Virus record (IMG/VR): IMGVR_UViG_3300043449_002292
Location: 1 to 64,000 of that record
Reading direction: 5' to 3' (one strand)
Length of the DNA: 64,000 bases
Source: a virus
Position numbers and translations under genes: made by a program. Positions 5,458-64,000 of this stretch are shown here, piece after piece (within the stretch, counting starts at the first letter, position 1; each line of letters opens with the position of its first letter). The notes beneath the pieces were generated by a model that ran no database searches, was not told where the DNA came from, and saw nothing but the letters and a program-made list of their open reading frames with translations.

Positions 5458-5463
5458 ATGATC

Positions 5464-5492: not shown

Positions 5493-5671
5493 GGGACCAG
5501 CAGGTCGGGTGTGACCTCTATGATCTTCCCATGCCACAGGATCCGCCAGATCGTAAGGGGCTTCCCGCGTTTGCTGTGGGTGGCGACGATGAGGGCCGGC
5601 TCATCATGGAACTTCCTCATATAGGCCCCGAGTCCCACGACCCTGATGAGAACGAGATCACCGGGCTTCAT
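5465..5671 (-). CDS. GDL-family protein, 68 aa
   Basis: MKPGDLVLIRVVGLGAYM start at 5669-5671; strand IWRILWHGKIIEV; C-terminus replaced by VPCNPPADVV, whose codons coincide with the promoter for the next gene. 14-base overlap with the upstream copy. Function unknown. Confidence 0.8.
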   Translation of the reverse strand: MKPGDLVLIRVVGLGAYMRKFHDEPALIVATHSKRGKPLTIWRILWHGKIIEVTPDLLVPCNPPADVV

Positions 5672-5858
5672 CTACCAACTCAAGATGATCGATCAGGAAG
5701 AATTCATTACCGTCCCAGAGCATAACATTGGCGACCTCATCGCAGTCATCGAAGCTCCACGCCGTGCTGATCACGAATCCCAACTCGCTCTCATCGTAGA
5801 GACGACGACCGCAAAGAAAACGAGACGGTTTAAGTTTAACAAGATCACCTGATTTCAT
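5658..5858 (-). CDS. GDL-family protein, 66 aa
   Basis: MKSGDLVKLKPSRFLCG start; strand NVMLWDGNEFFL; tail LELVDEAR. 14-base overlap downstream, ATGA overlap upstream. Codon use is slightly more AT-rich than in the copies below 5000. Function unknown. Confidence 0.8.
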   Translation of the reverse strand: MKSGDLVKLKPSRFLCGRRLYDESELGFVISTAWSFDDCDEVANVMLWDGNEFFLIDHLELVDEAR

Positions 5859-6109
5859 TCTTTAGGTCCTGGCGGTTTCAACCCTCTATAGAAACGAGAA
5901 TAATGGCAAGTTGAATTTACTTCGCCCATCATGAGAACGGTCGGGTATCGGTGATGAGGGGCAGCGGGTGGAGTGATCCAAATAGCCGGAACGTAATCAT
6001 CATTACCTAGATGGAACCATACGAGCTCACCCGATTCTGGAACATTTATCGCCCTGGTGACCTGTCCATCATCGCGTTTAAACTCACCGATCCTGAACAG
6101 GTAATTCAT
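5855..6109 (-). CDS. GDL-family-like protein, 84 aa
   Basis: Start taken at ATG 6107-6109 after AGGGCGATCC, giving MNYLFRIGEFKRDDGQ, where RIGEFKR replaces KPGDLVR; an in-frame ATG at 6148 overlapping the upstream stop is the alternative. ESGELVWFHLG gives the family's central strand. ATGA overlap with the next copy. AT-richer than the core array. Function unknown. Confidence 0.68.
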   Translation of the reverse strand: MNYLFRIGEFKRDDGQVTRAINVPESGELVWFHLGNDDYVPAIWITPPAAPHHRYPTVLMMGEVNSTCHYSRFYRGLKPPGPKE

Positions 6110-6140
6110 GGATCGCCCTGGGTCCTGTGGGATAATCTTA

Positions 6141-6800
6141 TTATTCATCCTGCCAGCCCACGCAATCCCAGCAAGCTCCGACATCACGACCGTGCTGCGT
6201 TCTAGCGTCAAGCTCCACGTTATCAAACCTAAAAGATTCAAAAATTCGATCAGTCACCGATCCAACGACCCTGTTCTGATCATCGCATGAGTTGAATGTC
6301 ATATTTTTCAACTCATCAAGCTCGCTGTTAATCTCTTTCACGATCAACGCGCCGTATCTCCTCGCAAGCTCAACGTGCTGTAGTTCATGAAGCTTGATTA
6401 ACGCGATAAGATTCGTGAATGATTCGGAGTCGGGAGTTTGGGACCCTGAGTAGTGTGGAAGGATTATCTCAGTATTGATAGTCAAACGCTGTAAGTCGCA
6501 GCTATCGCTGTTCAGTTCAGGGACGAAGTAAGATGACGTCACTGCGCTCATGGTTTTTCCAGAGTTCGGATCTTTCGGACCAAGTTCGATCACACTGTTC
6601 CGGAGCTCAGCCCCTGTTTGACCCGTAACAACGTAGAGGCGTTCCGTAATATCGTGCTTGATAAATTGCGCAGCGACAGGGTCGACAGGATCGATCAATC
6701 CATCGAGCGGATCAAGGGTTTCAGAAGGACTCCCAATGTTACTAAGATCTGGGTTGTAACAAGCAGACGCAACCAGCAAAATGATACTCGACGATAACAT
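6141..6800 (-). CDS. Lipoprotein, DUF922-like putative zinc protease, 219 aa
   Basis: The N-terminus MLSSSIILLVASAC is a hydrophobic signal ending in a VASAC lipobox, so the mature protein would start at Cys14 as a lipoprotein. Near residues 137-141 there is HELQH (HExxH) and near residues 199-205 DARTQHG; HExxH followed by D..T.HG is the signature I know from DUF922, predicted secreted zinc-dependent proteases. In a phage it could act on the cell envelope or as a superinfection or lysis factor. It sits inside the GDL array and is more AT-rich than its surroundings, suggesting a separate origin. Protease activity is inferred. Confidence 0.72.
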   Translation of the reverse strand: MLSSSIILLVASACYNPDLSNIGSPSETLDPLDGLIDPVDPVAAQFIKHDITERLYVVTGQTGAELRNSVIELGPKDPNSGKTMSAVTSSYFVPELNSDSCDLQRLTINTEIILPHYSGSQTPDSESFTNLIALIKLHELQHVELARRYGALIVKEINSELDELKNMTFNSCDDQNRVVGSVTDRIFESFRFDNVELDARTQHGRDVGACWDCVGWQDE

Positions 6801-6822
6801 CTCTTTTCCTCGTTAAGTAGTG

Positions 6823-7119
6823 TTACTCATCATTACGAATCGGTATCACATCGACGTGTGACTCGTAGCACCAGACGATCTCACCGTTGGGTAGCATGAT
6901 CTGGCATCGTCCCAGGCCCTCGGGTCCATCGACGTGATGCTCGATGAGGGTCGCGATCGTGCCTGTTGGAACGTGATTGTATCGACCAGCGTCCGAACGC
7001 CAGACCGGAACCTGGGACATGGCACCCGTGTATGATCTTGGACTGCCCCGGAGATCGATCGGAATGTAGCGTTCCCGCTGATTCAAGCAAACGAGATCAC
7101 CGCTTCGCAGTATTGACAT
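6823..7119 (-). CDS. GDL-family-like protein, 98 aa
   Basis: Begins MSILRSGDLVCLNQRERY; strand QIMLPNGEIVWCYESHVDVI near the C-terminus matches the family template with a longer central insertion (SYTGAMSQVPVWRSDAGRY). Not overlapped with its neighbours. Function unknown. Confidence 0.75.
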   Translation of the reverse strand: MSILRSGDLVCLNQRERYIPIDLRGSPRSYTGAMSQVPVWRSDAGRYNHVPTGTIATLIEHHVDGPEGLGRCQIMLPNGEIVWCYESHVDVIPIRNDE

Positions 7120-7165
7120 CGGCAGCTCCGACCCTCGTTAATCGTAACATGAGCAGCCCAAGTGT

Positions 7166-7393
7166 TCAAGCTCGCTCACGATCTTCGACCTTGGTAAAGT
7201 AGATTAACGGTGCCTGGATCGTTCCGGAAGGCCCAAGCACCTGAAGCGATCTACCACTGGTTCCCTCACGCTGGATGACACGTAGGACAAGGCAGACACC
7301 AAGTTGCCTGATGTCCTGCCACTCTTCCTGATGATCGTTCCACTCACGCATACGAACTAGATCGCCGACCTCGATGTGAGTGGATGGCGACAT
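7166..7393 (-). CDS. GDL-family-like protein, 75 aa
   Basis: Begins MSPSTHIEVGDLVRMREW; strand LQVLGPSGTIQ. The ribosome site is weak; the start lies 5 bases after the upstream stop, so coupling is likely. Function unknown. Confidence 0.72.
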   Translation of the reverse strand: MSPSTHIEVGDLVRMREWNDHQEEWQDIRQLGVCLVLRVIQREGTSGRSLQVLGPSGTIQAPLIYFTKVEDRERA

Positions 7394-7398
7394 GGATA

Positions 7399-7830
7399 TT
7401 AATCGACCGCATCCTTCGAGAGATGAAGAGCGAGCCTCGCTGCGAGGACGCGAATTCTCTTCGCCTCCTTCTTCGTGACGCGGACCTTACCGTCGATATC
7501 CTTTCTGAGCGCGGTGGTGCGCTCCTTGTTAAGAGCCTCAGCGTCCGGGACGGGCTCGATGAACTCCTCGGCTTTAAGTGACATTTCCTGATCCTCCTCA
7601 TCTAAGTGTTTCAAACTTCGCGGGTTTACAGGCTTAATCCAACGTGAGGGGACGATGCCGACCTGACCTTCGAATATCACCTGCCATGATGGGATGAGCC
7701 AACCCGTCGGCAGATGCTTCACCAGCAAGACAAGATCACCCGTCTTGATCATCTTGTTGGATTCGTGATTCAGCGTCTCAAAGACTGACGGGATCGATAC
7801 GGTCACCTCTGCGAGATCGCCGGGCTTCAT
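7399..7830 (-). CDS. GDL-family protein with truncated duplicate and extra C-terminal domain, 143 aa
   Basis: Residues 1-26 begin MKPGDLAEVTVSIPSV and look like a broken first copy; residue 27 restarts with MIKTGDLVLLVKH and a complete family domain to about residue 70 (SWQVIFEGQVGIV). The remaining 70 residues are a charged helical domain (VRVTKKEAKRIRVLAARL) unlike anything in the array. First gene of the array in transcription order; a sigma70-like TTGAAC-N17-TAAGAT lies just upstream on the minus strand. Function unknown. Confidence 0.75.
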   Translation of the reverse strand: MKPGDLAEVTVSIPSVFETLNHESNKMIKTGDLVLLVKHLPTGWLIPSWQVIFEGQVGIVPSRWIKPVNPRSLKHLDEEDQEMSLKAEEFIEPVPDAEALNKERTTALRKDIDGKVRVTKKEAKRIRVLAARLALHLSKDAVD

Positions 7831-15832: not shown

Positions 15833-16849
15833 CTAAGCCGCCCGCTTCTTGGTGAGGCGCTCCGCAGCCTTCTTCTCCTTGTCCTTCCGGGCGATCTCAT
15901 TGATCTTCTCGTCGGTGGTGCCACGCTGCTCGTCGTAGAAAGCCGACATGTTCCGGCCGGTGACGAGCTGGATGACCGCGAGCTCCTTCGCCTTCGCCTC
16001 GACAACGCAGTCGATCTCGAGACCGTGAGGATCGACGGGACCATCGACGAAGTTGGAGTGGGCGGTGGCAGCGACATCACGACCCTCACGCTCGCGGGCC
16101 GACTCGGAGTAATGGGTGACAGGGCGGATACCGGCCGGCCAGGTGCTCGCTGCGAGGTGAAGGGCATCACGTTCGGAGAGGCCGCCATCGCAGAACTTGT
16201 GATGGTGATAGTCGAAGACGACCGGCGTCCCGGTGCGCTGCCAGACGGTGTGGAGATCGACGACGCTGTAGCACTTCGCCTTGTCATCGTTCTCGACCGT
16301 GAGACGTCGCTTGACATTCTCGGGCACCCGCTCGAAGTTGCGGCACCAGCGATCCATCGACTCCTCCTTCTGGCCGAAGGCGCCGCCGAGGTGGATGTTG
16401 ATCTTCGCCTCGGGGGTGTTGGGCAGGCCGATGGCGTCCATGATCTCACCGTGGATGCGGAGGTCACGGATGCAGTTGGCGACGACGTGCTCGCGGGGGG
16501 AGGTCAGGCAGTTGAACTGGCCCGGGTGGAAAGAGAGGCGCTGACCACCCTCACGGGCAAGCTTACCGGCGAGCTCGAGGGTGCTTCGAATTGCCTGCCA
16601 GTCGGGTAGCTGCTCGAACTCGTATTCCGAGGCCCACGGGGCCAGGTCGGAGGTCATCCGATACACCTGGATCCCATTGGTGTTGTTCCATTGGATGATT
16701 CCGCAGAGTGTCTCCACATTCTCCAGGGTGAGGCGGGATGCGTGCTGCAGGCCCTTCTCGGCGAATGTGCGCTTGATCATCGATCGAAAGCCACCCTTCT
16801 TCGGACCGAGGGTCATGTTGAGACAGGCGTAGCCGAAACGAGTTGCCAT
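15833..16849 (-). CDS. uvdE: UV damage endonuclease (UvdE/UVDE), 338 aa
   Basis: TIM-barrel UV endonuclease that nicks 5' of UV photoproducts and abasic sites in an excision pathway independent of UvrABC. All family boxes are present: RFGYACLNMTL at the N-terminus, YRMTSDLAPW, LSFHPGQF, INIHLGGAFG, RLTVENDD, PVVFDYHHHKFCDG and VTHYSES, with the conserved His, Glu and Asp metal ligands. Length is typical. ATG with GGAGGTTAACC, behind its own GTGCAA-class promoter, so likely expressed early. The C-terminus is Lys/Arg/Glu-rich. Confidence 0.95.
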   Translation of the reverse strand: MATRFGYACLNMTLGPKKGGFRSMIKRTFAEKGLQHASRLTLENVETLCGIIQWNNTNGIQVYRMTSDLAPWASEYEFEQLPDWQAIRSTLELAGKLAREGGQRLSFHPGQFNCLTSPREHVVANCIRDLRIHGEIMDAIGLPNTPEAKINIHLGGAFGQKEESMDRWCRNFERVPENVKRRLTVENDDKAKCYSVVDLHTVWQRTGTPVVFDYHHHKFCDGGLSERDALHLAASTWPAGIRPVTHYSESAREREGRDVAATAHSNFVDGPVDPHGLEIDCVVEAKAKELAVIQLVTGRNMSAFYDEQRGTTDEKINEIARKDKEKKAAERLTKKRAA

Positions 16850-16915: not shown

Positions 16916-17266
16916 CTAGTAATCTTCCTCTTCCATGTCCTCATCGGACTCGAGATCCTCGGTCTCACCCACGGCCCAGTCATTCACGTAACTCTTCAGA
17001 TGCTCGCACATGTCATCGATCATGCCCATGACCTCATCCTTCACGCGCGCCGGACGTGATGCACCGCGGCTGAGCATGTCCGCGATATCGATCGCGTAGC
17101 GCTCCATGATGCCGTTAAAGTCCAACTCAGGAATATCATCGTCGTCCATCTCGGGTGGGGGTGATCCGTAGACAGCCTCGATCTCCTCGGGGAAAGAACC
17201 CTCACGAAGGGCACGTTTCGCCTCTTCCTTGATAATCCTACGCATCATTGACTCGGTCAATCTCAT
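16916..17266 (-). CDS. Virion-block protein with (L/I)RRIIREE-type N-terminus, 116 aa
   Basis: N-terminus MRLTESMMRRIIKEEAKRAL followed by REG is one of the clearest copies of the shared N-terminal helix; L-R-E/G at residues 20-23 fits a T4-type prohead-protease site. The rest is acidic, ending in an Asp/Glu-rich tail. Probably a capsid-internal protein or scaffold component. Late motif ATAATTAT lies 17 bases upstream. Confidence 0.7.
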   Translation of the reverse strand: MRLTESMMRRIIKEEAKRALREGSFPEEIEAVYGSPPPEMDDDDIPELDFNGIMERYAIDIADMLSRGASRPARVKDEVMGMIDDMCEHLKSYVNDWAVGETEDLESDEDMEEEDY

Positions 17267-28286: not shown

Positions 28287-28799
28287 TTACGCTTTAACTA
28301 AAGTAAATAGCATGAGATTGCCTCTATTACGGAGAAGTCTTGACAGATTCTTCGCATCAAGACACCATCTGCCGCCCCTTTTCACATAAATAAGTCCCTC
28401 GGCTCGACTTATGATATAAGGTCCGGGCGCTTTAATGTCCACCTCGTCGAAGGAGGTGGGTCCGCCCGGGGGCAGGGACGGAGATTTTGATTGCTGACCT
28501 TCGGTATGTGCTACGAAGGTATTAAAAATCGTAGGATCACCTTCAAAATACCACCAACCGTCTTTCCCCTTTACATAAACTGGTTGGTATGCTCCACCAT
28601 TGTTATAAAGAACTTTCGAACCCGCAGGGTGTGAATCTAGCTGCGCTGGTGAATCCATCTCACCTGTGTCCGACGCAAGAAACTGAAATCCAGCCGGGGC
28701 AGGACCGGCAGGGGTTTGGGTCTGTTCACGCAGAACTCGAGACGTTTCTTCTCTGATAATTCTGCGAAGCTTGCTCTCTGACATCATCATGCTAAACAT
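28287..28799 (-). CDS. Virion-block protein with LRRIIREE N-terminus, 170 aa
   Basis: MMSESKLRRIIREETSRVLRE followed by Q is the archetype of the shared N-terminal helix; L-R-E/Q fits a (L/I)xE prohead-protease site. The rest is beta-rich with paired segments YVKGKDGWWYFEGD and IYVKRGGRWCLDA, like SH3-type repeats. AT-richer than the metabolic genes. Late motif ATAGTTA lies 15 bases upstream. Likely capsid-internal; function unknown. Confidence 0.7.
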   Translation of the reverse strand: MFSMMMSESKLRRIIREETSRVLREQTQTPAGPAPAGFQFLASDTGEMDSPAQLDSHPAGSKVLYNNGGAYQPVYVKGKDGWWYFEGDPTIFNTFVAHTEGQQSKSPSLPPGGPTSFDEVDIKAPGPYIISRAEGLIYVKRGGRWCLDAKNLSRLLRNRGNLMLFTLVKA

Positions 28800-31191: not shown

Positions 31192-31561
31192 CTTCTTGCT
31201 CCAGTATCGTTAAATATGACCTATCCGACTCTACACCGACAACAAGAGCTTTAAACTCAAGACCTACGATGACGACGTCAAGCTTCTCATTAACTATGAA
31301 CGCCTGCAGCAAACGTTGCGAGCGGTCGGACGTTTTTAAGGATACGATCTTCCTGCCTGTGACATCGATGCTCGTCGATAGAATGCTCAGCTGGGTGTAG
31401 TCTCCGTCGAGGCTAACAAGGCATTCAAGATCAGGAGCAGCGACCCTCTCCCCCTTCTCCTCGACGATATCCAGCTCTAATCCCTCTGAGGCGAAGAAGT
31501 AGGAGCGATGCTCACCGATATCCGTATGAGCAGACGTCGTTGTAGATGAGCTCGGCTTCAT
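31178..31561 (-). CDS. Hypothetical protein, 127 aa
   Basis: ATG 31559-31561 with GGGAG seven bases upstream. Begins MKPSSSTTTSAHTDIGEH; the body is beta-rich (LECLVSLDGDYTQLSILSTS; KLDVVIVGLEFKALVVG). Overlaps the upstream gene by 50 bases and the downstream one by 14. Function unknown. Confidence 0.62.
   Translation of the reverse strand: MKPSSSTTTSAHTDIGEHRSYFFASEGLELDIVEEKGERVAAPDLECLVSLDGDYTQLSILSTSIDVTGRKIVSLKTSDRSQRLLQAFIVNEKLDVVIVGLEFKALVVGVESDRSYLTILEQEDAGI
31211..31217 (-). promoter_or_regulatory. Late-type motif ATATTTA
   Basis: ATATTTA 19 bases before the 58 aa gene at 31191, inside the end of the preceding gene. Confidence 0.5.
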
Positions 31562-31898
31562 TGGCATACTCCCTATCAAGCTCCGTCACGCAATCAACAC
31601 CGTGGGTAAAGACCTCGATCGTGACCCTGGGGCCACTGCATGTGATCGAGGCATGATGGTTCCGATCGTCCTCGTAATCCATGAGCTCATTGAGGAACGA
31701 CCTTGCAGCACCGCGGCTCCCGAACTCGTAGGTCCTGCAGAGCCGCTCCGGTGACTGCTTCGTGAACCACCTGCTCTCGCTGCGTGGAGCCACGGGCAGC
31801 ACCCTCGTATCCACGTGGAAGTCACGAGGCATGATAGGCTGCGCCGTCTCATGCTCGAAATACTCACGTAGCAGGTTCGAGACCCTCGGGGCCCTCAC
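31512..31898 (-). CDS. Pterin-4a-carbinolamine dehydratase-like protein, 128 aa
   Basis: Residues 55-120 match the PCD/DCoH fold: TYEFGSRGAARSFLNELMDY, then RNHHASITCSGPRVTIEVFT, then HGVDCVTELDREYANEAELI. The HH pair (81, 82) and the H in THG (99) correspond to the three catalytic His of pterin-4a-carbinolamine dehydratase. An N-terminal 50-residue extension starts VSNLLREYFEHETAQ, similar to the virion helix. GTG start with GGAAGTAGATC. A PCD in a virion block is unusual; it may serve folate recycling or be a structural reuse of the fold. Confidence 0.72.
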   Translation of the reverse strand: MRAPRVSNLLREYFEHETAQPIMPRDFHVDTRVLPVAPRSESRWFTKQSPERLCRTYEFGSRGAARSFLNELMDYEDDRNHHASITCSGPRVTIEVFTHGVDCVTELDREYANEAELIYNDVCSYGYR

Positions 31899-34149: not shown

Positions 34150-34464
34150 CTAACCCTTTTCCTGCTTCGCGATGTAATCGTAGATGCTTTCAGCGTCGGA
34201 GGCCGTGAGCTTCTTGATCCTCTTCTCCTTCTTACGTTTCACCAGCTCGTCCATCATCCTGTGTGTGTGTGAGTCACCATCAACGACCAGTTGACAGAAT
34301 TCCACGAACATCTCCTGAAGGGAGAGTTTCTTTCGGAAAGCGAACACCCTCATTTCAGCGTGCAGCTCCGAGGGTATCTTGATGTGAATGCACTTCCTGG
34401 GGTCGAGGACGAGGTTCACCTGCCTACGCAGCTCCTCCGCCTCCTCCCTTCGCTCCGACTGCAT
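34150..34464 (-). CDS. Ribbon-helix-helix-like DNA-binding protein, 104 aa
   Basis: CIHIKIPSELHAEMRVFAFR followed by KKLSLQEMFVEFCQLVVDG has the pattern of a ribbon-helix-helix (Arc/MetJ-like) domain: a short strand IHIKIP, helix A, a turn with S, helix B. The N-terminal 25 residues overlap the upstream gene by 41 bases, so an internal GTG at 34414-34416 may be the real start. Probably a transcriptional regulator. Confidence 0.65.
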   Translation of the reverse strand: MQSERREEAEELRRQVNLVLDPRKCIHIKIPSELHAEMRVFAFRKKLSLQEMFVEFCQLVVDGDSHTHRMMDELVKRKKEKRIKKLTASDAESIYDYIAKQEKG

Positions 34465-35311
34465 ATGAATCCGGTGGTGGCTCTGGACGTTCCAATGATA
34501 TGTGATAGTTCTTGCTCAGTAAATTTTTAAGCTGCTTATTGAGCTTATCTGCGTGATCTGGGAACTGACTTTTCAGATAAGATTCTGCCTGATCGATAAC
34601 ATTCTTCTTCACATCAACGAGAGATGTGTAATTCTTTATTAGATTTGCAATCTTCTCGGTGAATACGTCCATGTTAATCTTTGGCTCTGGCTTCTCTTTC
34701 TTGGCTTCCTGCTCATACAGGACACGAAGGGAACGATGCCGAAAGCTTTCAGCGACAGCCTCGGCGTCAGCATCATCTGCTGCTTCCATACCAGCCACAA
34801 GTGCCTGATGAACCGCCGTCTTTCCAGCTTCACTGGATTTCGGAGGCGGTGGTTTTGCTGCGCCTGGTGCCGCGGGTGCCGCGGGTGCACCTGGGACGGC
34901 AGGAGCTCCTGGTGCGGCAGGGGTGGCAGCTGGAGCTGCCGCGGCGGCGCCTGCAGCGGCCATAGGGTCAGGGGTCAGAGCAGGCGCTGGGGTTGCAGAT
35001 GCGGCAGGAGCTGGTGGAGTCAAAGCGGGTGTCGGAGCCGCTGCGGCTGCAGGATCAGGGGTCAAAGCAGGGGCCGGCGTGGCAGCGGTGGCGGCAGGAT
35101 CTGCCGGAGGAGTCGCAGCAGCAGGATCAGTCGGAGGTGGCGTAGCAGTAGGATCAGTCGGAGGTGGCGTAGCTGGTGCTGCGGCAGCAGGGTCGGCGGG
35201 CGCGCCGGGCGGTGTAGGTGCAGCCTGCTCGTAGAGCTGTTTCGTGAGGCTGAGCCTATAACCCTCCTGAATGATTAAGCGGCGAATCTGAGATTTACTT
35301 ACGACTTTCAT
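34424..35311 (-). CDS. Virion-block protein with long Ala/Pro linker, 295 aa
   Basis: MKVVSKSQIRRLIIQEGYRL...LTKQLYEQ (L-Y-E/Q) is a shared N-terminal helix, followed by about 130 residues of Ala/Pro/Thr repeats (PPTDPAAATPPADP), then a second HRSLRVLYEQEAKK site, and a helical C-terminal domain (VFTEKIANLIKNYTSLVDVK) of a type I have seen in other large-phage virion proteins. The repeat DNA may be recombinogenic. ATGA overlap with the SOD gene. Confidence 0.7.
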   Translation of the reverse strand: MKVVSKSQIRRLIIQEGYRLSLTKQLYEQAAPTPPGAPADPAAAAPATPPPTDPTATPPPTDPAAATPPADPAATAATPAPALTPDPAAAAAPTPALTPPAPAASATPAPALTPDPMAAAGAAAAAPAATPAAPGAPAVPGAPAAPAAPGAAKPPPPKSSEAGKTAVHQALVAGMEAADDADAEAVAESFRHRSLRVLYEQEAKKEKPEPKINMDVFTEKIANLIKNYTSLVDVKKNVIDQAESYLKSQFPDHADKLNKQLKNLLSKNYHISLERPEPPPDSYAVGAKGGGGGAA

Positions 35312-36033
35312 TTTGATGCCTCCACCATCCGCTCAACCTTCCTGATACGATCCTCGATGATAGACCACTTAAGTTCCTTCATCATGGCAAAAACATATGA
35401 ACGTCGATCTTTCAGGTAATCTCGATAGTATGAATGCTCCCAACAGTCCAACACAACTATGGGGACCGAAGAGAACGGTATTCCAACGTTATGTAAATCG
35501 ACCACAACATTCATGTATCTCTTCAAGAAGAAATTATAGACTGTGACAACCCAACCGTTTCTTGAGCTGAGAGCACAGGCGATGAAGTCCCGTTGCCATG
35601 CGTCAAAGCTGCCAAAGTCTCTTTCAAGTCTCATATACGCTAGCGAATCCATAGAGACCGTAGAGCGTAAATCTGAGATATTCTCGAAAAACATTCCGTG
35701 AAGAAACGCAGCATTGAGATTATGAACTTCGTCAATTTTGAGACTACGGAATGCTGAATTGTTCGGGTTCGCAGCGTCACGATCAGCTGTGTCGAGGGCC
35801 GCGGACACCTCGTTCAAGGCCTTGGCGTAACCCTCCATCAGCTCCTGATGAGCAGTCTTATTTTCCTCGCTCAGCTTCTCGGTTGCCATATCGTACTTCG
35901 AAGCGTTTACAACGTAAGCCTCGGCGAGCTTTTCGGGAGCAGGACCAACCTTACGGGAAACAGCAAGAGATTCTTTTATGATCTCATTTATATCATCCTC
36001 ATTGATTCCGAGGATTCTCTGCTTTGTTTTCAT
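35308..36033 (-). CDS. Fe/Mn superoxide dismutase homologue with virion-type N-terminus, 241 aa
   Basis: Residues 52-75 (LSEENKTAHQELMEGYAKAL) align with the first SOD helix: H62 is the first metal ligand and Y69 the active-site Tyr position. FLHGMFFEN gives H112; VLDCWEHSYYRDY gives D196 and H200, completing a His3-Asp site. RDFGSFDAWQRDFIACA..NGW.V is also typical. Before the SOD domain lies MKTKQRILGINEDDINEIIK followed by E/S, a copy of the shared helix. It may be packaged in the capsid, or be a structural reuse of the fold. Start ATG 36031-36033. Confidence 0.82.
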   Translation of the reverse strand: MKTKQRILGINEDDINEIIKESLAVSRKVGPAPEKLAEAYVVNASKYDMATEKLSEENKTAHQELMEGYAKALNEVSAALDTADRDAANPNNSAFRSLKIDEVHNLNAAFLHGMFFENISDLRSTVSMDSLAYMRLERDFGSFDAWQRDFIACALSSRNGWVVTVYNFFLKRYMNVVVDLHNVGIPFSSVPIVVLDCWEHSYYRDYLKDRRSYVFAMMKELKWSIIEDRIRKVERMVEASK

Positions 36034-36040
36034 GTTAGTT

Positions 36041-36373
36041 TTAAACCTCAAAATCCCTTTCGAATTCATCGATTGTGTAAACCTGCGGCGACTGACCGGG
36101 AGAAACAATCGTCTGACCTGCTGTTGACGTGATCGGACCCGTCACATTCTCAGGAGAAATCAGGCTAACTTTCACCGCTCCGCCCTCATCCTTGCTAACG
36201 CTTTGAACCGTGAATTTCTGCTTGGTTTTCTTGTTCGTCACCTCGAGACCTGCGTCGACCATGACTTTTCCGCCAGCTCCTATCACGTCCATTTCGAGCA
36301 AGGTCGAAAACAGTCTGGACTCGAACTGCTCACGAATCAGGCCGATTACCTTTTTTTCTGACCGACTTCTCAT
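36041..36373 (-). CDS. Virion-block protein, 110 aa
   Basis: MRSRSEKKVIGLIREQFESR (I-R-E/Q) then a small beta domain: VMVDAGLEVTNKKTKQKFTV, VKVSLISPEN, and an acidic C-terminus. ATGA overlap with the upstream 473 aa gene. Function unknown, likely packaged or assembly-related. Confidence 0.66.
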   Translation of the reverse strand: MRSRSEKKVIGLIREQFESRLFSTLLEMDVIGAGGKVMVDAGLEVTNKKTKQKFTVQSVSKDEGGAVKVSLISPENVTGPITSTAGQTIVSPGQSPQVYTIDEFERDFEV

Positions 36374-37791
36374 TTTGACTCCTTAATACCGGCAAGCTTG
36401 CACCATCTGTCGACCGCAGACTCTGTGAATATTACCGATCCCCCGACTAGACTATTAAGCTCTTTACGTAGTTCGTCCTGGTTGATAACCCTAAGGTTTG
36501 TTTTACGTTCGGAGTCCGAGGAGCCTGCCGTGATTGATGGACGACCGAGTATGTTGGACAGTGAATGACGACGAACTATCGCAGACCCACCACCGGCAGC
36601 GCCAGCGCCACCTGCGGCTGCGACACCGGCTGCAGCCGCACCAGCACCAGCACCTGCGGCTGCAGCCGCTGAGGCACCCGCTGCAGCCGCACCGCCGCCC
36701 GCGACAGCGGCTGGTGTTGGACGAGAAATTCCCAGAGAAGCCCCGATCGATGCGAGTCCTCCGAAAACTAGAGCCTCCGCCGGATCAAAAGTGACCAGAT
36801 TCGTTGAGGTGTCCGTGGTCTTCTGCGCCATCATCTCGAAAACTTTCTTGAACTCATCGAGGCTGAGAAGCTTGAGATCGTCGGAGAATTGTGAAGCCGT
36901 AAGGCTCGTGGGCTTGATTGCTGGAGTTCCTCTAAACTTCCTATAAATGCTTACTATAAACCCTTCAGCCGGCGACGAAATCTTGAAGTTACGTCCAACC
37001 ACACTATCGATATCGAACCCTTTGCTAGCAGCGAGAGATGCAAGTGTGGAGTCGAGCTTTGCGCGGCTCGGCGCCGATACCTTGAGAAAGAGCTCCTTCA
37101 CGCCACCTGGTGCGGGTTTAGGTTCACCATCATCTCCCCTGCCGACGACGTAAATTTTATCGGCAGAAACGTTCTCAAGCGGTAGAGTCGAAGACACCCC
37201 AGGCGCTGACAGCATGACATCGAAGCCTTCATCAGCCGATGCCTTTCCGATCACCATGAATTTCCTACCTTCATGATAACGATCAAAATCACCGAGAGCG
37301 GAAATTTCAGAGAATGGAACGCGGCGTGGAGACCTGAGCTTTGCACCGCCGCCCCTTAGTTTGATGAGATCGAAAACTATCGCTTCGTCAGTGAAGAACT
37401 TTAGCTCTGTCTTGAAATCGTTGATGATCAACAGACGAACTGCGTCCATCGCATTGAGGATTGTGAATTTCAAAACCTCGGCTGCTGTGATGGCATCGAC
37501 CAACTTTCTCTGGCTTCTATCGAGACCGATCGCGCTGAGGATTGGGTCCGGTTCCGAAGAAATGGCCTCCTCGAGCTTATCGATCGTCCCACGTAACGCC
37601 GCTTTCGTGTTGGACATCTTGGAGATCGCGGGAAGATCTTCGATGTCTGATAAGGGCTCAATCGATTGACGTGCAGCTTCGAATGATGCACGATCGACCG
37701 CCTCACTCATGAGGTAGTCTAAATTTCTGCGCTTGAGAGAACGGGAGGCGTCGTCATACCTACGTCCCATGTTACGCCCAATGTTGCTCAT
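36370..37791 (-). CDS. Large virion-block protein with Ala/Gly linker, 473 aa
   Basis: MSNIGRNMGRRYDDASRSLK then RRNLDYLMSEAVDRASFEAA, resembling the shared helix. Two beta domains (FMVIGKASADEGFDVMLSA; KIYVVGRGDDGEPKPAPGG) and a 50-residue Ala/Gly tract (GAGAGAAAAGVAAAGGAG) before a C-terminal domain. First gene of the 36-31 kb late block; ATACTTA motif 26 bases upstream. Confidence 0.66.
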   Translation of the reverse strand: MSNIGRNMGRRYDDASRSLKRRNLDYLMSEAVDRASFEAARQSIEPLSDIEDLPAISKMSNTKAALRGTIDKLEEAISSEPDPILSAIGLDRSQRKLVDAITAAEVLKFTILNAMDAVRLLIINDFKTELKFFTDEAIVFDLIKLRGGGAKLRSPRRVPFSEISALGDFDRYHEGRKFMVIGKASADEGFDVMLSAPGVSSTLPLENVSADKIYVVGRGDDGEPKPAPGGVKELFLKVSAPSRAKLDSTLASLAASKGFDIDSVVGRNFKISSPAEGFIVSIYRKFRGTPAIKPTSLTASQFSDDLKLLSLDEFKKVFEMMAQKTTDTSTNLVTFDPAEALVFGGLASIGASLGISRPTPAAVAGGGAAAAGASAAAAAGAGAGAAAAGVAAAGGAGAAGGGSAIVRRHSLSNILGRPSITAGSSDSERKTNLRVINQDELRKELNSLVGGSVIFTESAVDRWCKLAGIKESK

Positions 37792-43704: not shown

Positions 43705-46700
43705 TCACATGACCTTGATTTTCTTACCTTTTGTCGACAAACCGAAGTCGGAACGATCGACCTCAGCAACGCACAGCGTGTACGGCTCGAAACCAATCTT
43801 ACCGTCCCAATCCCACATGAACATCTTTTCCGTGTTTCCAGCCTCACCCATCACCTGAAGCATGAGGTAGGGCTTACCGTTCTTCGTCTTCTTCTCGACC
43901 GAGCTCACGACGACGAACCAGTAGATGTCAAGTCTCTCCCAGTTATCGATGGAGTAAACCTCCTTGTCCTTGAATTTCTGACGAAGTTCTGGGGAGATGA
44001 GGGAGACCGGATCCATCTTACCCGAGAGCTCGATCTGCATGAGAGCCATCTCACGACGAGTCCACTCGGGCATGCCCTCAGTCTCGACGAGGAGCTCACG
44101 GAAGCGCTTGACACCACGCTGCGGATCCTTCTTAGCCCATTTCTTGATGTCCTCCGCGTTCTCGATAAGAACATGATGCATCTGCTTCCAGGATGAGAAC
44201 TGCTTACCCTTACCGACAATGCCCATCGATTCGAACCCACCGGCTTTGATGAGAGCCTCAAGGGCCCGACGATTGAACTTCGAGGGTCGCCACTGACCGT
44301 CTTCCTTCCATAGCATCTCCTCGATGGACCTATACGGACGGCATGCCACGATCTCCTCGATCGCTGTCTCACCGACGCCCTTGATTGTGTTGAAGGACGG
44401 AATTAGGAGCTTACGCTCAGCATCGACGGACCATTGGTTCGTGGAGAGGTTGATATCGACGTTGCCGATATCATAGCCCATCTTCTTCACGTCGGAGATT
44501 GCCTGGGCACGGTCGTCCGGGTTTCCGATCATCGATTCCATGTAAGCGCAGAGCCACTCAGCCTCGTAGTATGTCAGGAGCCAGGCGCAGTAGTAGGAAT
44601 CGATCGCATAGGCGAGAGCGTGGGAGAGGTTGAAGCCGTAACCTGCGAAGAAGAGGATGTCGTCCCAGAGCTTCGAGGCCACCGACTCCTTGATCCCGTT
44701 CCCGACAGCGCCGTTGACGAAGCTGTCCTTCATCGCCTTCGCCTTCTTCATCGACTCTTCAGGGTTACCGCCCTGACGCTTCAGAATGTTCTTTCGGACC
44801 TTATCACACTCGGACTTCGGGAATCCTGCCACCACGTTGCAGAGCTGCATGAGCTGCTCCTGGAAGATGATGCAGCCGAATGTTGGCTCCAGCACCTGCT
44901 TGATGAGTGGGTGCTTGTAATCAATGTTACGCGGATTCGCCTTCGCCTCGAGGTAGAGCTTATCAACCTTCGCCGCTAGCGGACCTGGCCGGAAGACTGA
45001 AGTGAGTGTGGCGATGTCGATGATCGATCGTGGCTTCGCATTCTGGAAGAGACGCTGGGCACCCTTGCTGGTGAGCTGGAAGACACCCGGGGTGCGGGTC
45101 GTCGCCTCATGGTAGACGTTCTCATACACTCTCTGATCATCAAAATCGAGCACGTCGTTCGACATATACTTATCGAACCATGCCTTGACGTCCTTGAACT
45201 TCGGGTCCTTGAGGCCATGATGACGTTCAAGGATGAGCTCGATCGTTCGACGGATCATGCGCAGAGTTTCGAGCCCGAGGAGGTCGAACTTAACCCAACC
45301 AAGCATCTCGAGATGCTTGTAGTTCATGCCCTCGACCCAGGGGGTCTGCTGCTCGCCCTTCGCCATGATGAGTGGCATCCGCTCCTGGATACGTTCGGAG
45401 ATGATGACACCTCCGGCATGACGACCGAGGGCCTTATTCTGCCGGAAGAGAACCTTGATCGACTCGGAGACCTGCGGGTACTTGTCGATGAATTCCCGGA
45501 AACTCGGGCTGTGCTCGTAGCTCTCCTCGAACGTCAGGACGAAGAGGTTCTTGTCGTCGCCGACCTTGCGGGTCGCATCCATGACCTCCTTCTCCACGGT
45601 CTTCAGGGAGGCATTCACCTCCTCGAGCGGGATGTCGTACAGTCTCGAGATATCGCGAACGAGGGTCTTCAACTTGAAGGTGTTGTAGTTCGAGATTGGA
45701 ACGATGTTCTCACCGCCGAACTTCGAACGAAGGATCGCCAGGAGCTGATCGCGGTTCTCAACGTCAGTATCGATGTCAGGTAAACCCTCACGGTCCGGAG
45801 ACAGGAACCGCTCGAAGAGCAGACCATACTTGATTGGATCAACATCGGTGATCCCGAGCACGTAGCAGACGAGCGAGCCCGCACCGGAACCTCGACCAGG
45901 ACCGATGAACATCTCCTCCTTCGCAGCCGAGATGATCTCCTTCATCGTGAGGAAGTAGGAGGCGAAATCCTTCTGCTTGATAACATCGATCTCGTAGTCT
46001 GCACGCTCAACGTAGTCCTGACGGCCAGCGAGACCCTTCGCGGCAAGACCCGCCTTCACAGCATCAACAAGTGCCTCATTCGCGGTCTTACCCTTCGGGA
46101 TGACGTAACTCGGAAGCTTAACGGAGCGATCAGGCTGCACGTCACCGATCTCCTCATGGGCGAGATGCCAGGTGCGCTCGACAGCCTTACGGATGAGATC
46201 CTCCTGGCCATGGTAGAACGCTTCGGTCTGCCGGGATGTAAGGAACTCGTCCCAGACCTGGGACGCGTTCTTCGGGTAGAGCTCACACTTCAGCTGGTCC
46301 TTGCTCTTCGGGATTGAATCAGCCGAAAGCTCGGCGTAGTTGAGCCAACCGAGCTTCTTGTAGATCTCACGCTCACGCCAGTGCTCAGGGCGGGCGTAGT
46401 GGGAGTCGCAGGTGACGACAAGCTGATCCGTCATGCCCTGCCGCTGGGCAAACTCGATGAGAGCGCGGTTGACGATGTGCTGCGCCGGGAGCCGATTGAA
46501 CTGAAGCTCCAGCATCACGTTCTTCCGACCAACGGCCCACGCGAGGCCATCGAAGGAGTTACCGATGCGGTTGATGACGCGCTCCATCATCGATGGATCG
46601 TCGAGTAGTCGGCTGTTGAGACTGTCGAAGCTGTGTTCCTGCAGCTCACGGAAAACCTCAAAGGCAAGCGGACCACCGACGCAAGCAGTCGAGACGATGA

Positions 46701-47328
46701 AGTTGTCGTCCTCCTGTGCCTCCTTCAGCATCCGAAGATCGACACGCGGGAACTTGTAGAAACCCTCGGAGTATCCGCGGCTCACAAGACCGAAGAGTCG
46801 CTCGAGACCCTTGCTGTGTCGAGGTAGGACCACGAGATGGTGACGACGGTTGATCGGATTGAAGTGCTTTGTGGACTTCGTCTCGTCCTCATTCTCGATC
46901 GTGAGGGCCGAGTTATCGGTGTCGATGCCGATCGTCTCGTCATTCTCATCGGTTGTGGCAACAATGGGAGTCACCACATTCTCGGGCTTTACCTTCGCTT
47001 TCGCGTGGCTCTTGCGATCACGCTTGAGCTGCTGCCACTCATCGTACTCACCGCGCCAGGCATCGAGATCCGGGTGGATATACATCTCACAACCTGGGAT
47101 GAGCTTGAAGTCCTTCCCAGCCTTTCGCATCTTATCGACGTGCAGCCACGCATGACCGAACGAGTTCATGTGACCGTGGTTCGTCATCGACCAGCCGTCG
47201 AGGCCATTCTCCGCGCAGAAGTCGATGTGCTCCTGTGGAAGACCGAGTCCGTCGAACACGCTGAAGCCGTCATGGGAATGCAAGCCGAAGAACTTCTCCG
47301 GACGCTTCAATTCGCTTCCATCTGCCAT
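43705..47328 (-). CDS. dnaE: DNA polymerase III alpha subunit (DnaE-type), 1207 aa
   Basis: C-family polymerase. N-terminal PHP domain starts GLHSHDGFSVFDGL with NHGH where bacterial active sites have DHG, so its metal site may be altered; an 80-residue acidic/basic insertion follows GCEMYIHPD. Palm: FIGPGRGSGAGSLVCYVLG, LPDIDTDVENRDQLL (catalytic Asp pair) and VKFDLLGL (third Asp); then HAGGVII and GVFQLTSKGAQRLF. Start at ATG 47326-47328 with CAGGAGATAAA behind a GTGCAA promoter. Gives the phage its own replicative polymerase. Confidence 0.95.
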   Translation of the reverse strand: MADGSELKRPEKFFGLHSHDGFSVFDGLGLPQEHIDFCAENGLDGWSMTNHGHMNSFGHAWLHVDKMRKAGKDFKLIPGCEMYIHPDLDAWRGEYDEWQQLKRDRKSHAKAKVKPENVVTPIVATTDENDETIGIDTDNSALTIENEDETKSTKHFNPINRRHHLVVLPRHSKGLERLFGLVSRGYSEGFYKFPRVDLRMLKEAQEDDNFIVSTACVGGPLAFEVFRELQEHSFDSLNSRLLDDPSMMERVINRIGNSFDGLAWAVGRKNVMLELQFNRLPAQHIVNRALIEFAQRQGMTDQLVVTCDSHYARPEHWREREIYKKLGWLNYAELSADSIPKSKDQLKCELYPKNASQVWDEFLTSRQTEAFYHGQEDLIRKAVERTWHLAHEEIGDVQPDRSVKLPSYVIPKGKTANEALVDAVKAGLAAKGLAGRQDYVERADYEIDVIKQKDFASYFLTMKEIISAAKEEMFIGPGRGSGAGSLVCYVLGITDVDPIKYGLLFERFLSPDREGLPDIDTDVENRDQLLAILRSKFGGENIVPISNYNTFKLKTLVRDISRLYDIPLEEVNASLKTVEKEVMDATRKVGDDKNLFVLTFEESYEHSPSFREFIDKYPQVSESIKVLFRQNKALGRHAGGVIISERIQERMPLIMAKGEQQTPWVEGMNYKHLEMLGWVKFDLLGLETLRMIRRTIELILERHHGLKDPKFKDVKAWFDKYMSNDVLDFDDQRVYENVYHEATTRTPGVFQLTSKGAQRLFQNAKPRSIIDIATLTSVFRPGPLAAKVDKLYLEAKANPRNIDYKHPLIKQVLEPTFGCIIFQEQLMQLCNVVAGFPKSECDKVRKNILKRQGGNPEESMKKAKAMKDSFVNGAVGNGIKESVASKLWDDILFFAGYGFNLSHALAYAIDSYYCAWLLTYYEAEWLCAYMESMIGNPDDRAQAISDVKKMGYDIGNVDINLSTNQWSVDAERKLLIPSFNTIKGVGETAIEEIVACRPYRSIEEMLWKEDGQWRPSKFNRRALEALIKAGGFESMGIVGKGKQFSSWKQMHHVLIENAEDIKKWAKKDPQRGVKRFRELLVETEGMPEWTRREMALMQIELSGKMDPVSLISPELRQKFKDKEVYSIDNWERLDIYWFVVVSSVEKKTKNGKPYLMLQVMGEAGNTEKMFMWDWDGKIGFEPYTLCVAEVDRSDFGLSTKGKKIKVM

Positions 47329-47344
47329 TTTATCTCCTGGGTCA

Positions 47345-47373
47345 ACTATATCAGGACCCAGGATGGTTTGCAC
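47345..47373 (-). promoter_or_regulatory. GTGCAA-N17-TATAGT promoter of dnaE
   Basis: -35 GTGCAA 47368-47373, 17-base spacer, -10 TATAGT 47345-47350; dnaE ATG 16 bases downstream with ribosome site CAGGAG. Confidence 0.7.
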
Positions 47374-47387
47374 GAGTTACGAGTCGA

Positions 47388-47999
47388 CTAGAGATCGTCC
47401 TTTGGCGTGTCGTATCGATTCAGGACGACCATATTCTTGTAAAGATCCTCCCGAGCTTGCGCTCGTTGAGCGCGACCCAGTTGGATCCGCGCTTCCAGAT
47501 CTTTCTGATAATTTGGGTCATGCTTACGTGACAGTGCTGCGTGCCACTCGTCCGATGCGTCCCTCATGCGCTTCGAGTTCGCGGCGCGCTCTCGCTCGAG
47601 AGCCCGTTCCTCGGCGGCCTCTTTATTACGTTGTTTTTGCGCCTCAGCCTCTTTCTTCTTGGCGGAAGTTATCTTGGCTTGAGCCTCTGAATGATAATCC
47701 CTGATCGCTTTGGCCGCGGCGATTCTATATTCCTTTCTCTCCCTTGGGTTGCCGTTCCACTCACGTGGGAGATACTTCGCATCGTAGAGCCCTCTTTCAA
47801 ACTCGCCCAACCACTTTGCAGGATCCCAGCCTCTGTCCATCTTATCCCTCAGCTTCGGCCAAAGATCATTCTCTGTGGTAAAATGCTTCTCCGCCTTATC
47901 TTCACCCGACTTGAACCAATCGAAAAATCCTTCGTTCAGTCTGAGCTCGCGCGTGATCTCTTCACGAATAATCCGCTTGATTCTTGAATCATTTATCAT
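47388..47999 (-). CDS. Virion-block protein with IKRIIREE N-terminus, 203 aa
   Basis: MINDSRIKRIIREEITRELR followed by L-N-E/G is a clear copy of the shared helix with a (L/I)xE/G cleavage-like site at residues 21-24. The body is highly charged and helical (KKKEAEAQKQRNKEAAEERA), likely a long rod or scaffold-like coiled coil. Late motif ATATTTA 22 bases upstream. Confidence 0.7.
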   Translation of the reverse strand: MINDSRIKRIIREEITRELRLNEGFFDWFKSGEDKAEKHFTTENDLWPKLRDKMDRGWDPAKWLGEFERGLYDAKYLPREWNGNPRERKEYRIAAAKAIRDYHSEAQAKITSAKKKEAEAQKQRNKEAAEERALERERAANSKRMRDASDEWHAALSRKHDPNYQKDLEARIQLGRAQRAQAREDLYKNMVVLNRYDTPKDDL

Positions 48000-48636: not shown

Positions 48637-48951
48637 TCAGCCCTTGCCGGGACGCTGACCACGGTGTTTCAGCTTCGACCTGGACATCTTCTCAGCCCGA
48701 TCCGTTGGCACTCCAGATGCCCTCAAGCGTGCAAGACGAACCTTCGTGAAATCGTCATCGGTCTCGTAAACCGCTCCCACGTCGAGCCCAGAATCATCGG
48801 AGCCCTCCCCACCTGGAATCATGGGTCTGTCAATGTCGTAACCGCCCTTCTCCTCCAGACCGTCATCCTGGACAATCAGTTTTTTACCGCGTTCGACGGA
48901 GGCAAGCTCCTCACGAATGATCCTTCTGAGCCGCGATTCGGTGATGCGCAT
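48637..48951 (-). CDS. Virion-block protein with LRRIIREE N-terminus, 104 aa
   Basis: MRITESRLRRIIREELASVE is a near-consensus copy of the shared helix (I-R-E/E). The middle is acidic and Gly/Asp-rich (GGEGSDDSGLD), the C-terminus basic (KLKHRGQRPGKG). Probably packaged. Late motif ATAGTTA 15 bases upstream. Confidence 0.7.
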   Translation of the reverse strand: MRITESRLRRIIREELASVERGKKLIVQDDGLEEKGGYDIDRPMIPGGEGSDDSGLDVGAVYETDDDFTKVRLARLRASGVPTDRAEKMSRSKLKHRGQRPGKG

Positions 48952-61373: not shown

Positions 61374-62060
61374 TTAGTCCAACGTGTACTTGAGGTCAAT
61401 CTTGCAGGTGAGGGTCGGAAGACGGAGCTCATTCGCAAGGTTGTGATTCTTCGCGTCCTGGGCATCGAGATACCAATCCGCGTGACCCTTCTCGTGAACC
61501 ATCTTCAGGAAGTAATCCGAGGGCTTACCGCAGTTACGGGCCATCATCTCGTAGACCTTCTTGTTCAGTCGATCGACCTCCTTCGCGTCGGCCTTGATCT
61601 CCTCGACCTTTCCGAAAGCGCCGGAAGAGACATCATGGATCATGAGGGTCGCGTCAGGGTCCATGTAGCGCATTCCCTCAGCGCCGAAGCTGAAGAGGAT
61701 AGCTCCACAGCTCATTGCCTTTCCCTCGACAATCGTCGCTACAGGAATCTTGGAGGCCCGGATCGAAGAGATCATCGACATAAGGGAGTAGACCTGACCG
61801 CCGTAGCTGTCGATCACCACCGGGATTACCGACTGACCGGTGTTCTGGGCTCGGCTCATTGCGTCCATGAACTCCTTCGCGGAGTCCTCATCGAACTTGT
61901 TGACTCGAATGATGATCGGGTCAACCCGAAGTTCCACTGCCTTGATGTGCTGAGAGACATCTGCGATAAAATTCACTGCATACCCCACTTGTGTGATGTT
62001 ACTGATTATTTTTTCGATCTCTTCCTCGGAGTCATTCCGCTTCAGCCTGGCGCTACCCAC
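61374..62060 (-). CDS. ClpP-like serine protease, 228 aa
   Basis: VVIDSYGGQVYSLMSMISSI, VEGKAMSCGAILFSFGAEGM (nucleophile S117 of the GTG-start numbering), and ATLMIHDVSSGAFGK (H142) match ClpP; an Asp near DAQDAKNHNL may complete the triad. Phage ClpP-like proteins often serve as prohead proteases or host-protein degraders. A GTG at 62058-62060 is the likeliest start, but no good ribosome site is visible, so the N-terminus is uncertain. Overlaps the RNR gene by 8 bases. Confidence 0.75.
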   Translation of the reverse strand: MGSARLKRNDSEEEIEKIISNITQVGYAVNFIADVSQHIKAVELRVDPIIIRVNKFDEDSAKEFMDAMSRAQNTGQSVIPVVIDSYGGQVYSLMSMISSIRASKIPVATIVEGKAMSCGAILFSFGAEGMRYMDPDATLMIHDVSSGAFGKVEEIKADAKEVDRLNKKVYEMMARNCGKPSDYFLKMVHEKGHADWYLDAQDAKNHNLANELRLPTLTCKIDLKYTLD

Positions 62061-64000
62061 ACTTCGCGAAACCGCAGCTTCCACAGGAGAGGCAACCTTC
62101 CTGGTAGATGAGCTCCGAATTTCCACACTGTGGGCACCCTTTTTCAGTTGACTTAGTGCCATCCTTGATATACCCCTTTAAAACCCTTGCAATCACCCTA
62201 GCATATGAAAACATATCGCTATTCTTATCCTTTTGCAACTGCTCCACAACATAATGGAGCGGAACCTCATGACGTAGGGCGAGTGAGATCGTCCTCGTAA
62301 AGGCTCCCTGCGTTGGGTTGTCAAAAAGGTTCACGACGTCCTTGAAGATGAGATTATCGTCATCTCCGACAGGAACAACGAGATTGTAGGTTGCGACGCC
62401 ATCACGCTTACCATTCTTGACGAGTGAGCCAGACTTGTACTTCTTTGGGATCTCGATGTTCTCCGGAATCCCGCAGAAGACCTCATACGGCTTACCCTCA
62501 TTGAGTCCGATCAGGACGAGCCAAGATTCGGTGACGTCACCGTTACGAACTGTCGCACGATGTATGTCACAATCAAGAGACTTCGGACGCTTCGGGATGA
62601 GGCGACCGTCCTCACCCTTCTTTTCCTTCTTCGGTTCATCAACCTGAACAAGAACGCCCGTCCTGCAACCATCGCGATAGACCGTGAAGCCCTTACATCC
62701 CATCTTCCATGCCTTCAGATAGACATCGTTCACGATCTCGCGGGTGGCAGAGTTGGGTAGGTTGCATGTCTTAGAGATCGAGTGATCGATCCACCTCTGG
62801 GCTGCAGCCTGAATCTCAACCGACTTCGTCCAGTCGATGTCATTCGCAGTTCCACCCCAGTATGGGCTCTCCTTCGGGTCGGTCTTACCAGTGATATCCA
62901 TCCACTTCTTGAACCAGTGGTGGTAGACCGTATACTCCTGCCACTTGTCGCCCATCGGATCGACAAAGTCAACCCTGGAAGTGAGATCACCCTGTGTGAT
63001 CTTGCGACGGCGCTTGTAGGAGAGGAGGAATGCGGGTTCGATGCCGGATGTCGTCCGAGTGAGACATGAAACCGAGCCGACTGGTGCCGTGGTGGTAAGC
63101 GCGATGTTACGACGACCCGTGGTCCTCCACATGTCCATAGCATCTTCTTCGCAGGCAGAAATTACCTTTCTGAGATATTTGTGACTCTTTTCCTTCTCGT
63201 AGTCCCATACCGGGAAGGCGCCTCTCTCCTTCGCCATGATAAGTGACGACGTGTGTGCACCGATGGCAAGCTCCTTGTAGATCGACTCTGTGATCTCAAT
63301 TGAGCGACTGTCTCCGTAGCGCACATTTAACGCGGCGAGCGCGTCTCCGAGACCAGTGATGCCAAGACCGGTGCGACGACCGTTGAGTCCTGCAGCTCGG
63401 ATCTTCTGCCAGAGATCAATCTCAATCTGCTTGACATTTGCAGGCTCCTTGTCATTGCGGATCTTCTCAAGAATCCGATCGACACATTCAACCTCGAGAT
63501 CAACGAGATCATCCATCAGGCGCTGTGCCTTCATGACAACCTCATTGAAAAAGTCGAAGTCGAACCTTGCGTCATCAGTGAATGGGTCCCTCACGAATGA
63601 TGTGAGATTGACCACCATCAGACGGCAGGAGTCGTATGGGCTTAGCGGGATCTCACCGCATGGATTGGTGGAGATTGTCTTGTAACCGACATCGCGGTAG
63701 CAATCCACGATACCCTGATCTACCACCGTATCCCAGAAGAGCGCGCCGGGCTCAGCGGAAGCCCATGCAGCATCCACAAACTTATTCCAGACCTGCTTCG
63801 CGTCGACCATCTTGACGATCTCCGCGTCCTCGGGGTGTGCCTCGACCGGCCAGCGAAGGCAGAACCCGACGTTGCTCTCCACTGCCTGCATGAACTCATC
63901 GGTGAAGCGGATGGAGATATTGGCACCGGTCACCTTCTTCAGGTCACGCTTGATATCGATGAAGGTCTCGATCTCCGGGTGCCGGCAGTCGATGGTGAGC
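62053..64000 (-). CDS. nrdJ: Class II (B12-dependent) ribonucleotide reductase, C-terminal part, runs off right edge
   Basis: The gene continues beyond 64000; in-frame upstream codons (IDCRHPEIETFIDIKRDLKK) are clearly RNR. STNPCGEIPLSPYDSCRLMV, NGRRTGLGITGLGDAL, TTAPVGSVSCLTRTTSGIEP and a C-terminal zinc-ribbon, CPQCGNSELIYQEGCLSC then GSCGFAKCG, identify a vitamin B12-dependent NrdJ-type enzyme. It makes dNTP precursors without oxygen dependence. The N-terminus and its promoter are outside the window. Confidence 0.93.
   Translation of the reverse strand, partial: LTIDCRHPEIETFIDIKRDLKKVTGANISIRFTDEFMQAVESNVGFCLRWPVEAHPEDAEIVKMVDAKQVWNKFVDAAWASAEPGALFWDTVVDQGIVDCYRDVGYKTISTNPCGEIPLSPYDSCRLMVVNLTSFVRDPFTDDARFDFDFFNEVVMKAQRLMDDLVDLEVECVDRILEKIRNDKEPANVKQIEIDLWQKIRAAGLNGRRTGLGITGLGDALAALNVRYGDSRSIEITESIYKELAIGAHTSSLIMAKERGAFPVWDYEKEKSHKYLRKVISACEEDAMDMWRTTGRRNIALTTTAPVGSVSCLTRTTSGIEPAFLLSYKRRRKITQGDLTSRVDFVDPMGDKWQEYTVYHHWFKKWMDITGKTDPKESPYWGGTANDIDWTKSVEIQAAAQRWIDHSISKTCNLPNSATREIVNDVYLKAWKMGCKGFTVYRDGCRTGVLVQVDEPKKEKKGEDGRLIPKRPKSLDCDIHRATVRNGDVTESWLVLIGLNEGKPYEVFCGIPENIEIPKKYKSGSLVKNGKRDGVATYNLVVPVGDDDNLIFKDVVNLFDNPTQGAFTRTISLALRHEVPLHYVVEQLQKDKNSDMFSYARVIARVLKGYIKDGTKSTEKGCPQCGNSELIYQEGCLSCGSCGFAKCG

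Follow-up and report, generated by a model that had tools for sequence, protein, structure and literature searches.

A Superoxide Dismutase Homolog Behind a Putative Head-Targeting Leader in Phages With T4-Type Head Genes

Introduction

Among the closest described systems are those of phage T4, in which head proteins carry an N-terminal targeting peptide for import and the prohead protease cuts after the Glu of a short motif (PMC9026906, PMC3012670, PMC5694885). The T4 internal proteins possess a cleavable capsid-targeting sequence of 10 residues, and foreign proteins fused to it enter the capsid and reach the host cell (PMC9026906, PMC3012670). Internal proteins of the T4 type are described as basic (PMC9026906). 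Superoxide dismutases (SODs) or SOD-like proteins are also known as virion components, namely A245R of chlorovirus PBCV-1 and A45R of vaccinia virus, both with the Cu/Zn fold (PMC7019647, PMC9282662), and a title in the reference list of the latter paper describes leporipoxvirus SOD homologs as catalytically inert. Packaged or injected phage proteins have usually been found one system at a time, and no report of a packaged phage SOD was found in the open-access literature searched, which misses most subscription journals.

The DNA analyzed in this study, referred to as the window, is the whole stretch of 64,000 nucleotides covering positions 1 to 64,000 of IMG/VR record IMGVR_UViG_3300043449_002292. 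It contains an ORF of 241 amino acids (36033..35308, minus strand) that places a common metabolic enzyme behind an apparent head-import leader, an arrangement seen across a whole phage lineage.

Materials and Methods

Fourteen relatives of the window SOD were obtained by searching IMG/VR with the sequence. An alignment search confirmed 159 candidates, of which 80 were kept, and found most of the first 14 again. One more relative (L100) came from a contig of a Methylococcaceae MAG, the sole match in a cellular genome; it clusters with phage sequences on the tree, suggesting that the contig is probably phage or prophage. Motif and ligand counts refer to 71 usable relatives, with L029, L030, and L092 left out as they were shortened by the choice of start codon. 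Gene calling on whole genomes was heuristic. The AlphaFold model of the window SOD was built from the first 14 relatives, and the tree used for ligand loss was built without the active-site columns. In the motifs below, a slash marks the predicted cut.

Identity and Predicted Fold

The gene and its predicted product are as follows.

35308..36033, minus strand: SOD-like gene encoding 241 aa from an ATG, with its stop codon at 35308-35310
35311..35919, minus strand: predicted mature protein, residues 39-241, complete Fe/Mn-SOD domain, 203 aa, 23.5 kDa

The ATG start agrees with the N-termini of the relatives. The homology to Fe/Mn SODs proposed in the initial annotation is borne out by a Pfam match to Sod_Fe_C (PF02777; E-value 4.6e-18, 65.6 bits vs a cut-off of 20.9) and by the best PDB sequence match, the FeSOD of Aquifex pyrophilus (1coj; 3.2e-25 over residues 54-240). 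No Pfam match to Sod_Fe_N was found at E<=0.1, yet the N-terminal half does align to SODs by phmmer and by fold comparison. Judged by these similarities, the protein is a diverged member of the Fe/Mn SODs in which the N-terminal half is divergent.

Structure prediction, which had been proposed as a check, gave a model with a mean pLDDT of 81, falling below 50 only within the leader (residues 1-7 and 23-33). The best match of the predicted fold is again 1coj, with a TM-score of 0.86 by target length, among 258 PDB matches at E<=0.001, and the protein is thus predicted to have the complete SOD fold. The mature protein is slightly acidic, with a computed pI of 5.8.

Leader and Predicted Cleavage Site

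Ahead of the SOD domain, three features can be placed on the window.

35920..36033, minus strand: leader at the N-terminus (residues 1-38), a predicted propeptide for capsid targeting (alignment of relatives)
35962..36000, minus strand: predicted leader helix, residues 12-24 (AlphaFold/DSSP)
35917..35928, minus strand: predicted prohead-protease site L36-A37-E38/A39 (conservation in 71 relatives)

Leader length ranges from 22 to 43 aa among the 71 relatives; the sequence is hypervariable and directly precedes a complete SOD domain. Mean column entropy is 2.67 bits in the leader and 1.18 bits in the domain, and drops to 0.0 at E38. The P1 residue of the site is Glu in 71/71 relatives, P3 is Leu, Ile, Val, or Met in 69/71, and 69/71 have Ala or Ser at P1', the remaining two having Asn. 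As the residue after E38 lies approximately where an ordinary SOD starts, a cut at E38/A39 would leave a complete domain of 203 residues.

The existence of a leader, with one predicted helix before the SOD domain, agrees with the initial annotation, but its end had been marked wrongly. The leader had been described as the first 21 residues, ending in I-K-E/S; as a conserved cleavage site, IKE/S (residues 19-22) was rejected, with E21 kept in only about half of the first relatives, and the invariant residue is instead E38 within [LIVM]-x-E/[AS].

A chance control was made with neighboring genes. The strict motif [LIV]xE[AS] occurs within residues 9-65 in 96% of the SODs, vs 0-13% of replication and nucleotide-metabolism neighbors, and the looser [LIVM]xE[ASG], in the same residues, is found in 0-33% of these neighbors at the same loci. 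As read from these alignments, the SOD leader site matches the prohead-protease rule of T4.

Capsid Protein and Protease in the Same Genomes

The record that contains the window encodes a Peptidase_S77 prohead protease (PF03420, 1.9e-26; 106067..105453 of the record) and a Gp23 capsid protein (PF07068, 1.3e-75; 101567..99648 of the record), with a T4-type portal and terminase nearby. Among 23 large SOD-bearing records, Gp23 was found in 18 and S77 in the same 18; both are absent from the remaining five, which may be incomplete. In SOD-bearing records, the capsid protein propeptide ends in L-[RK]-E/ near residue 60 in 21/21 aligned sequences, with P1' variable. One record of 293 kb (G029) contains two adjacent matches to Gp23-type capsid genes (L126 and L129). 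The cultured phages with the closest capsid proteins are Microcystis phage Mel-JY01, the immuto-type Flavobacterium phages, and Rhodothermus phage RM378, none of which was among the matches of the SOD search of cultured phages.

A head-targeted SOD is well supported by these sequence comparisons, because the T4-type site is conserved, S77 and Gp23 are present in the same genomes, and the motif occurs in 96% of the SODs vs 0-33% of neighbors. We consider it probable that the SOD is an internal head protein of a lineage with T4-type heads, imported through its leader, cleaved, and probably ejected, with catalysis in most relatives. The N-terminal leader would dock the SOD to the scaffold core of the prohead, where the phage's own Peptidase_S77 would cut after E38, removing the leader and leaving the SOD domain inside the capsid. 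The domain would then stay with the DNA and probably be ejected along with it. In most relatives the SOD would act against superoxide in early infection and shield the DNA from it, both in the capsid and just after injection, whilst in the minority with a decayed metal site its function in the head would be non-catalytic. We infer docking to the core, cleavage, packaging, and injection, as well as the dismutase activity.

Metal Site and Its Loss in Some Relatives

The metal site was located through alignment to SODs and to the relatives, with the second-shell residue placed from the relatives alignment.

35848..35850, minus strand: metal ligand His62
35698..35700, minus strand: metal ligand His112
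35491..35493, minus strand: second-shell His181, where Fe/Mn SODs have their catalytic Gln/His
35446..35448, minus strand: metal ligand Asp196
35434..35436, minus strand: metal ligand His200, in the D-C-W-E-H motif

All four ligands named in the initial annotation are present, and most of the 14 relatives found first share them. His181 occupies what we take to be the second-shell Gln/His site of Fe/Mn SODs, the counterpart of His145 in the Mycobacterium tuberculosis enzyme. The Tyr said to follow the first His is also present, as Tyr69, but its spacing from His62 is 7 residues vs 8 in the Aquifex SOD, seen as a gap in the alignment to 1coj, and the gateway His that lies between the two is absent.

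All four ligands are kept in 64/71 relatives (∼90%), and His181 in 63 of these 64 vs one of the seven that are ligand-deficient (L026, L054, L067, L079, L089, L090, and L091). A further sequence besides those seven, L015, is also ligand-deficient. The columns that separate ligand-intact from ligand-deficient SODs are largely the active-site set (62, 112, 180/181, 196, 198, and 200), suggesting that the active site is under selection in the majority of relatives. An active dismutase is predicted for most relatives.

On the tree, whose bootstrap support is not fully settled, four changes are required to explain ligand loss, and well-supported branches impose two of these; on this tree the ligands have been lost at least twice and probably four times. 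Between the members of the ligand-deficient pairs L067/L079 and L089/L091, dN is 0.08-0.12 and dS is saturated, which points to strong purifying selection on these SODs still. No other Sod_Fe_C match was found in the ligand-deficient records L026 and L090. Continued purifying selection together with the lack of a second SOD suggests that the role of the protein outlasts the loss of its metal site, and the lineages without ligands make it likely that there is a non-catalytic role in the head besides catalysis.

These losses also bear on an alternative raised in the initial annotation, that the fold was recruited as a structural protein. In its strict form, the SOD would serve the head solely in structure or DNA packing, with metal at most stabilizing the fold and dismutation irrelevant. 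Repeated loss of the ligands, their absence from proteins that still appear strongly constrained and from records with no second SOD, and an active-site helix short by one residue are all in favor of such recruitment, which has gained support to this extent. The retention of the four ligands in 64 of 71 relatives, and of His181 in nearly all of those, argues in the other direction, as does the concentration of differences in active-site columns, which is what would be expected if catalysis or metal binding were selected in the majority. Recruitment for structure alone is in our view unlikely, and a head protein that is catalytic in most relatives remains the preferred reading.

Gene Neighborhood and Other Leader-Bearing Proteins

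The SOD gene is single-copy in 20/20 records tested. In the window it has nucleotide-metabolism genes on one side and a block of unknown leader-bearing genes on the other, and the locus is syntenic in most relatives, between a dCMP deaminase side and the leader-bearing block. Four neighbors are relevant here.

36041..36373, minus strand: upstream neighbor of 110 aa whose short leader contains [LI]-x-E; synteny holds in many relatives
36370..37791, minus strand: 473-aa neighbor, leader end M-S-E/A
34424..35311, minus strand: downstream neighbor, Pro/Ala-rich, 295 aa, leader end L-Y-E/Q
31512..31898, minus strand: pterin-4a-carbinolamine dehydratase family protein within the block, 128 aa (PF01329, 2.8e-11)

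The leader of the 110-aa neighbor ends in LLE/M in the window, and in LWE/S, IAE/A, and LKE/S in relatives, whilst that of the 473-aa neighbor ends in L-D-E/A, L-L-E/A, and L-T-E/A in three relatives. The pterin-4a-carbinolamine dehydratase family gene lies beside the SOD gene in ∼45 loci, and the leaders of several relatives contain L-x-E/[AS], so that this protein may be another enzyme fold directed to the head. The SOD leader had been called a copy of a virion helix; it resembles other leaders of the genome in kind but is no copy of them. Unrelated proteins with a similar basic N-terminal helix (e.g., MRITESRLRRIIREE), in some cases then followed by L-x-E/[GQ], are encoded on the minus strand of the window at 16916-17266, 28287-28799, 47388-47999, and 48637-48951, and in the record at 94415-95623 and 104608-104916. 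These are candidates for further head proteins.

Placement of the gene in a late virion block, as initially annotated, is not directly supported, given the nucleotide-metabolism genes on one side and the lack of a T4-type late promoter: a search for this promoter (TATAAATA) ahead of the block gave no useful match, with one look-alike inside the SOD coding sequence. Nor could a Dps-like ferritin, cited as a hint of protection against oxidative damage to DNA, be found, as a search of the complete record with PF00210 gave no hit even at E<=1. The interpretation of head targeting stands as well supported, whilst this argument from Dps and the exact cleavage position first given for the leader do not.

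Other genes on the minus strand of the window encode a phage GroEL (24690-26285; phrog_5725, 2.8e-151), a ClpP-like protease (61374-62162; PF00574, 2.5e-26), the UV endonuclease UvdE (15833-16849; PF03851, 5.2e-62), and a bacterial-type DNA polymerase III alpha subunit (43705-47373). Many small proteins starting with MKPGDL are encoded at 2404-7830 (minus strand), an apparent expanded paralogous family.

The nucleotide-metabolism genes on one side of the locus would suit an ordinary cytoplasmic SOD, an auxiliary metabolic gene acting against superoxide during infection, in which the extension is incidental or an uncleaved docking tail. Plain SOD genes are indeed known in jumbo phages of the Callisto/PA5oct type and in Vibrio phage 2.275.O, encoding Fe/Mn SODs weakly similar to the window SOD (about 26% identity). 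These plain SODs, however, are 182-189 aa in length and without a leader, and their genes are not syntenic with that of the window, adjoining clpX, clpS, and ftsH, or lying near topoisomerase genes. Strict conservation of the P1 Glu, together with a protease-like motif after so variable a leader, would also not be expected of an incidental tail, and we regard a cytoplasmic role as very improbable. That the leader targets some other assembly (tail, baseplate, or host compartment), with L-x-E as a binding motif and not a protease site, would accommodate the similar leaders on several unrelated proteins of the genome, not all of which end in L-x-E/[AS], but seems highly unlikely given that the SOD site agrees with that of the capsid protein in these phages and that the S77 protease always accompanies the capsid gene.

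Since the SOD leader resembles a ticket for head import, this family of large aquatic phages may have an antioxidant enzyme within its virions, although a few relatives without the metal site seem to retain the fold alone. The wider proposal, that an active SOD, perhaps with the pterin-carbinolamine-dehydratase-like protein, is packaged via a cleavable leader and injected in a widespread lineage of large aquatic phages, is put forward tentatively and falls a little short of an even balance in our estimation. Several observations speak against the preferred reading, namely the ligand losses, the absent Sod_Fe_N match, the deletion between His62 and Tyr69, the missing gateway His, the distance of ∼64 kb between the SOD and capsid genes, the lack of a T4-type late promoter, and the slightly acidic pI. 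If the proposal is true, phages would carry superoxide protection inside the particle, and other cargo of the head could be predicted from sequence by its leader and cleavage site. An active site lost more than once while selection persists would also illustrate clearly how an enzyme can become a structural component.

Comparison With Known Systems

No member of the leader-bearing SOD family was found in the cultured phages searched, and the BFVD search gave only two SODs, both from uncultured phages. Within the open-access literature searched, an internal head protein of the T4 type with an SOD as its cargo appears to be unreported in phages.

The viral SODs known as virion components, A245R and A45R, have the Cu/Zn fold and belong to eukaryotic viruses, whereas the phage family has the Fe/Mn fold. 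We know of no prohead-protease leader on A245R or A45R. The leporipoxvirus homologs, as far as the title that describes them as inert can tell, offer a parallel to the ligand-deficient members of the phage family. With the Fe/Mn SODs, of which 1coj is the closest solved, the window family has in common the predicted fold, the four ligands, the second-shell His, and the D-x-W-E-H motif; it differs in its added leader, in being one residue short between His62 and Tyr69, in having no gateway His, and in the ligand deficiency of some members.

In comparison with T4, the leader of IPIII is 10 residues long vs 22-43 in the SOD family, and the predicted mature window SOD is slightly acidic, whereas T4-type internal proteins are described as basic (PMC9026906). 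The cargo in T4 consists of small proteins or an ADP-ribosyltransferase, vs a putative SOD cargo here. As with IPI, IPII, IPIII, and Alt of T4, the window SOD has an N-terminal peptide predicted to be cut off by the prohead protease after Glu and is encoded in a genome with a T4-type capsid protein and an S77 protease, and in both systems leaders of a common type precede unrelated cargo (PMC9026906, PMC3012670, PMC5694885).
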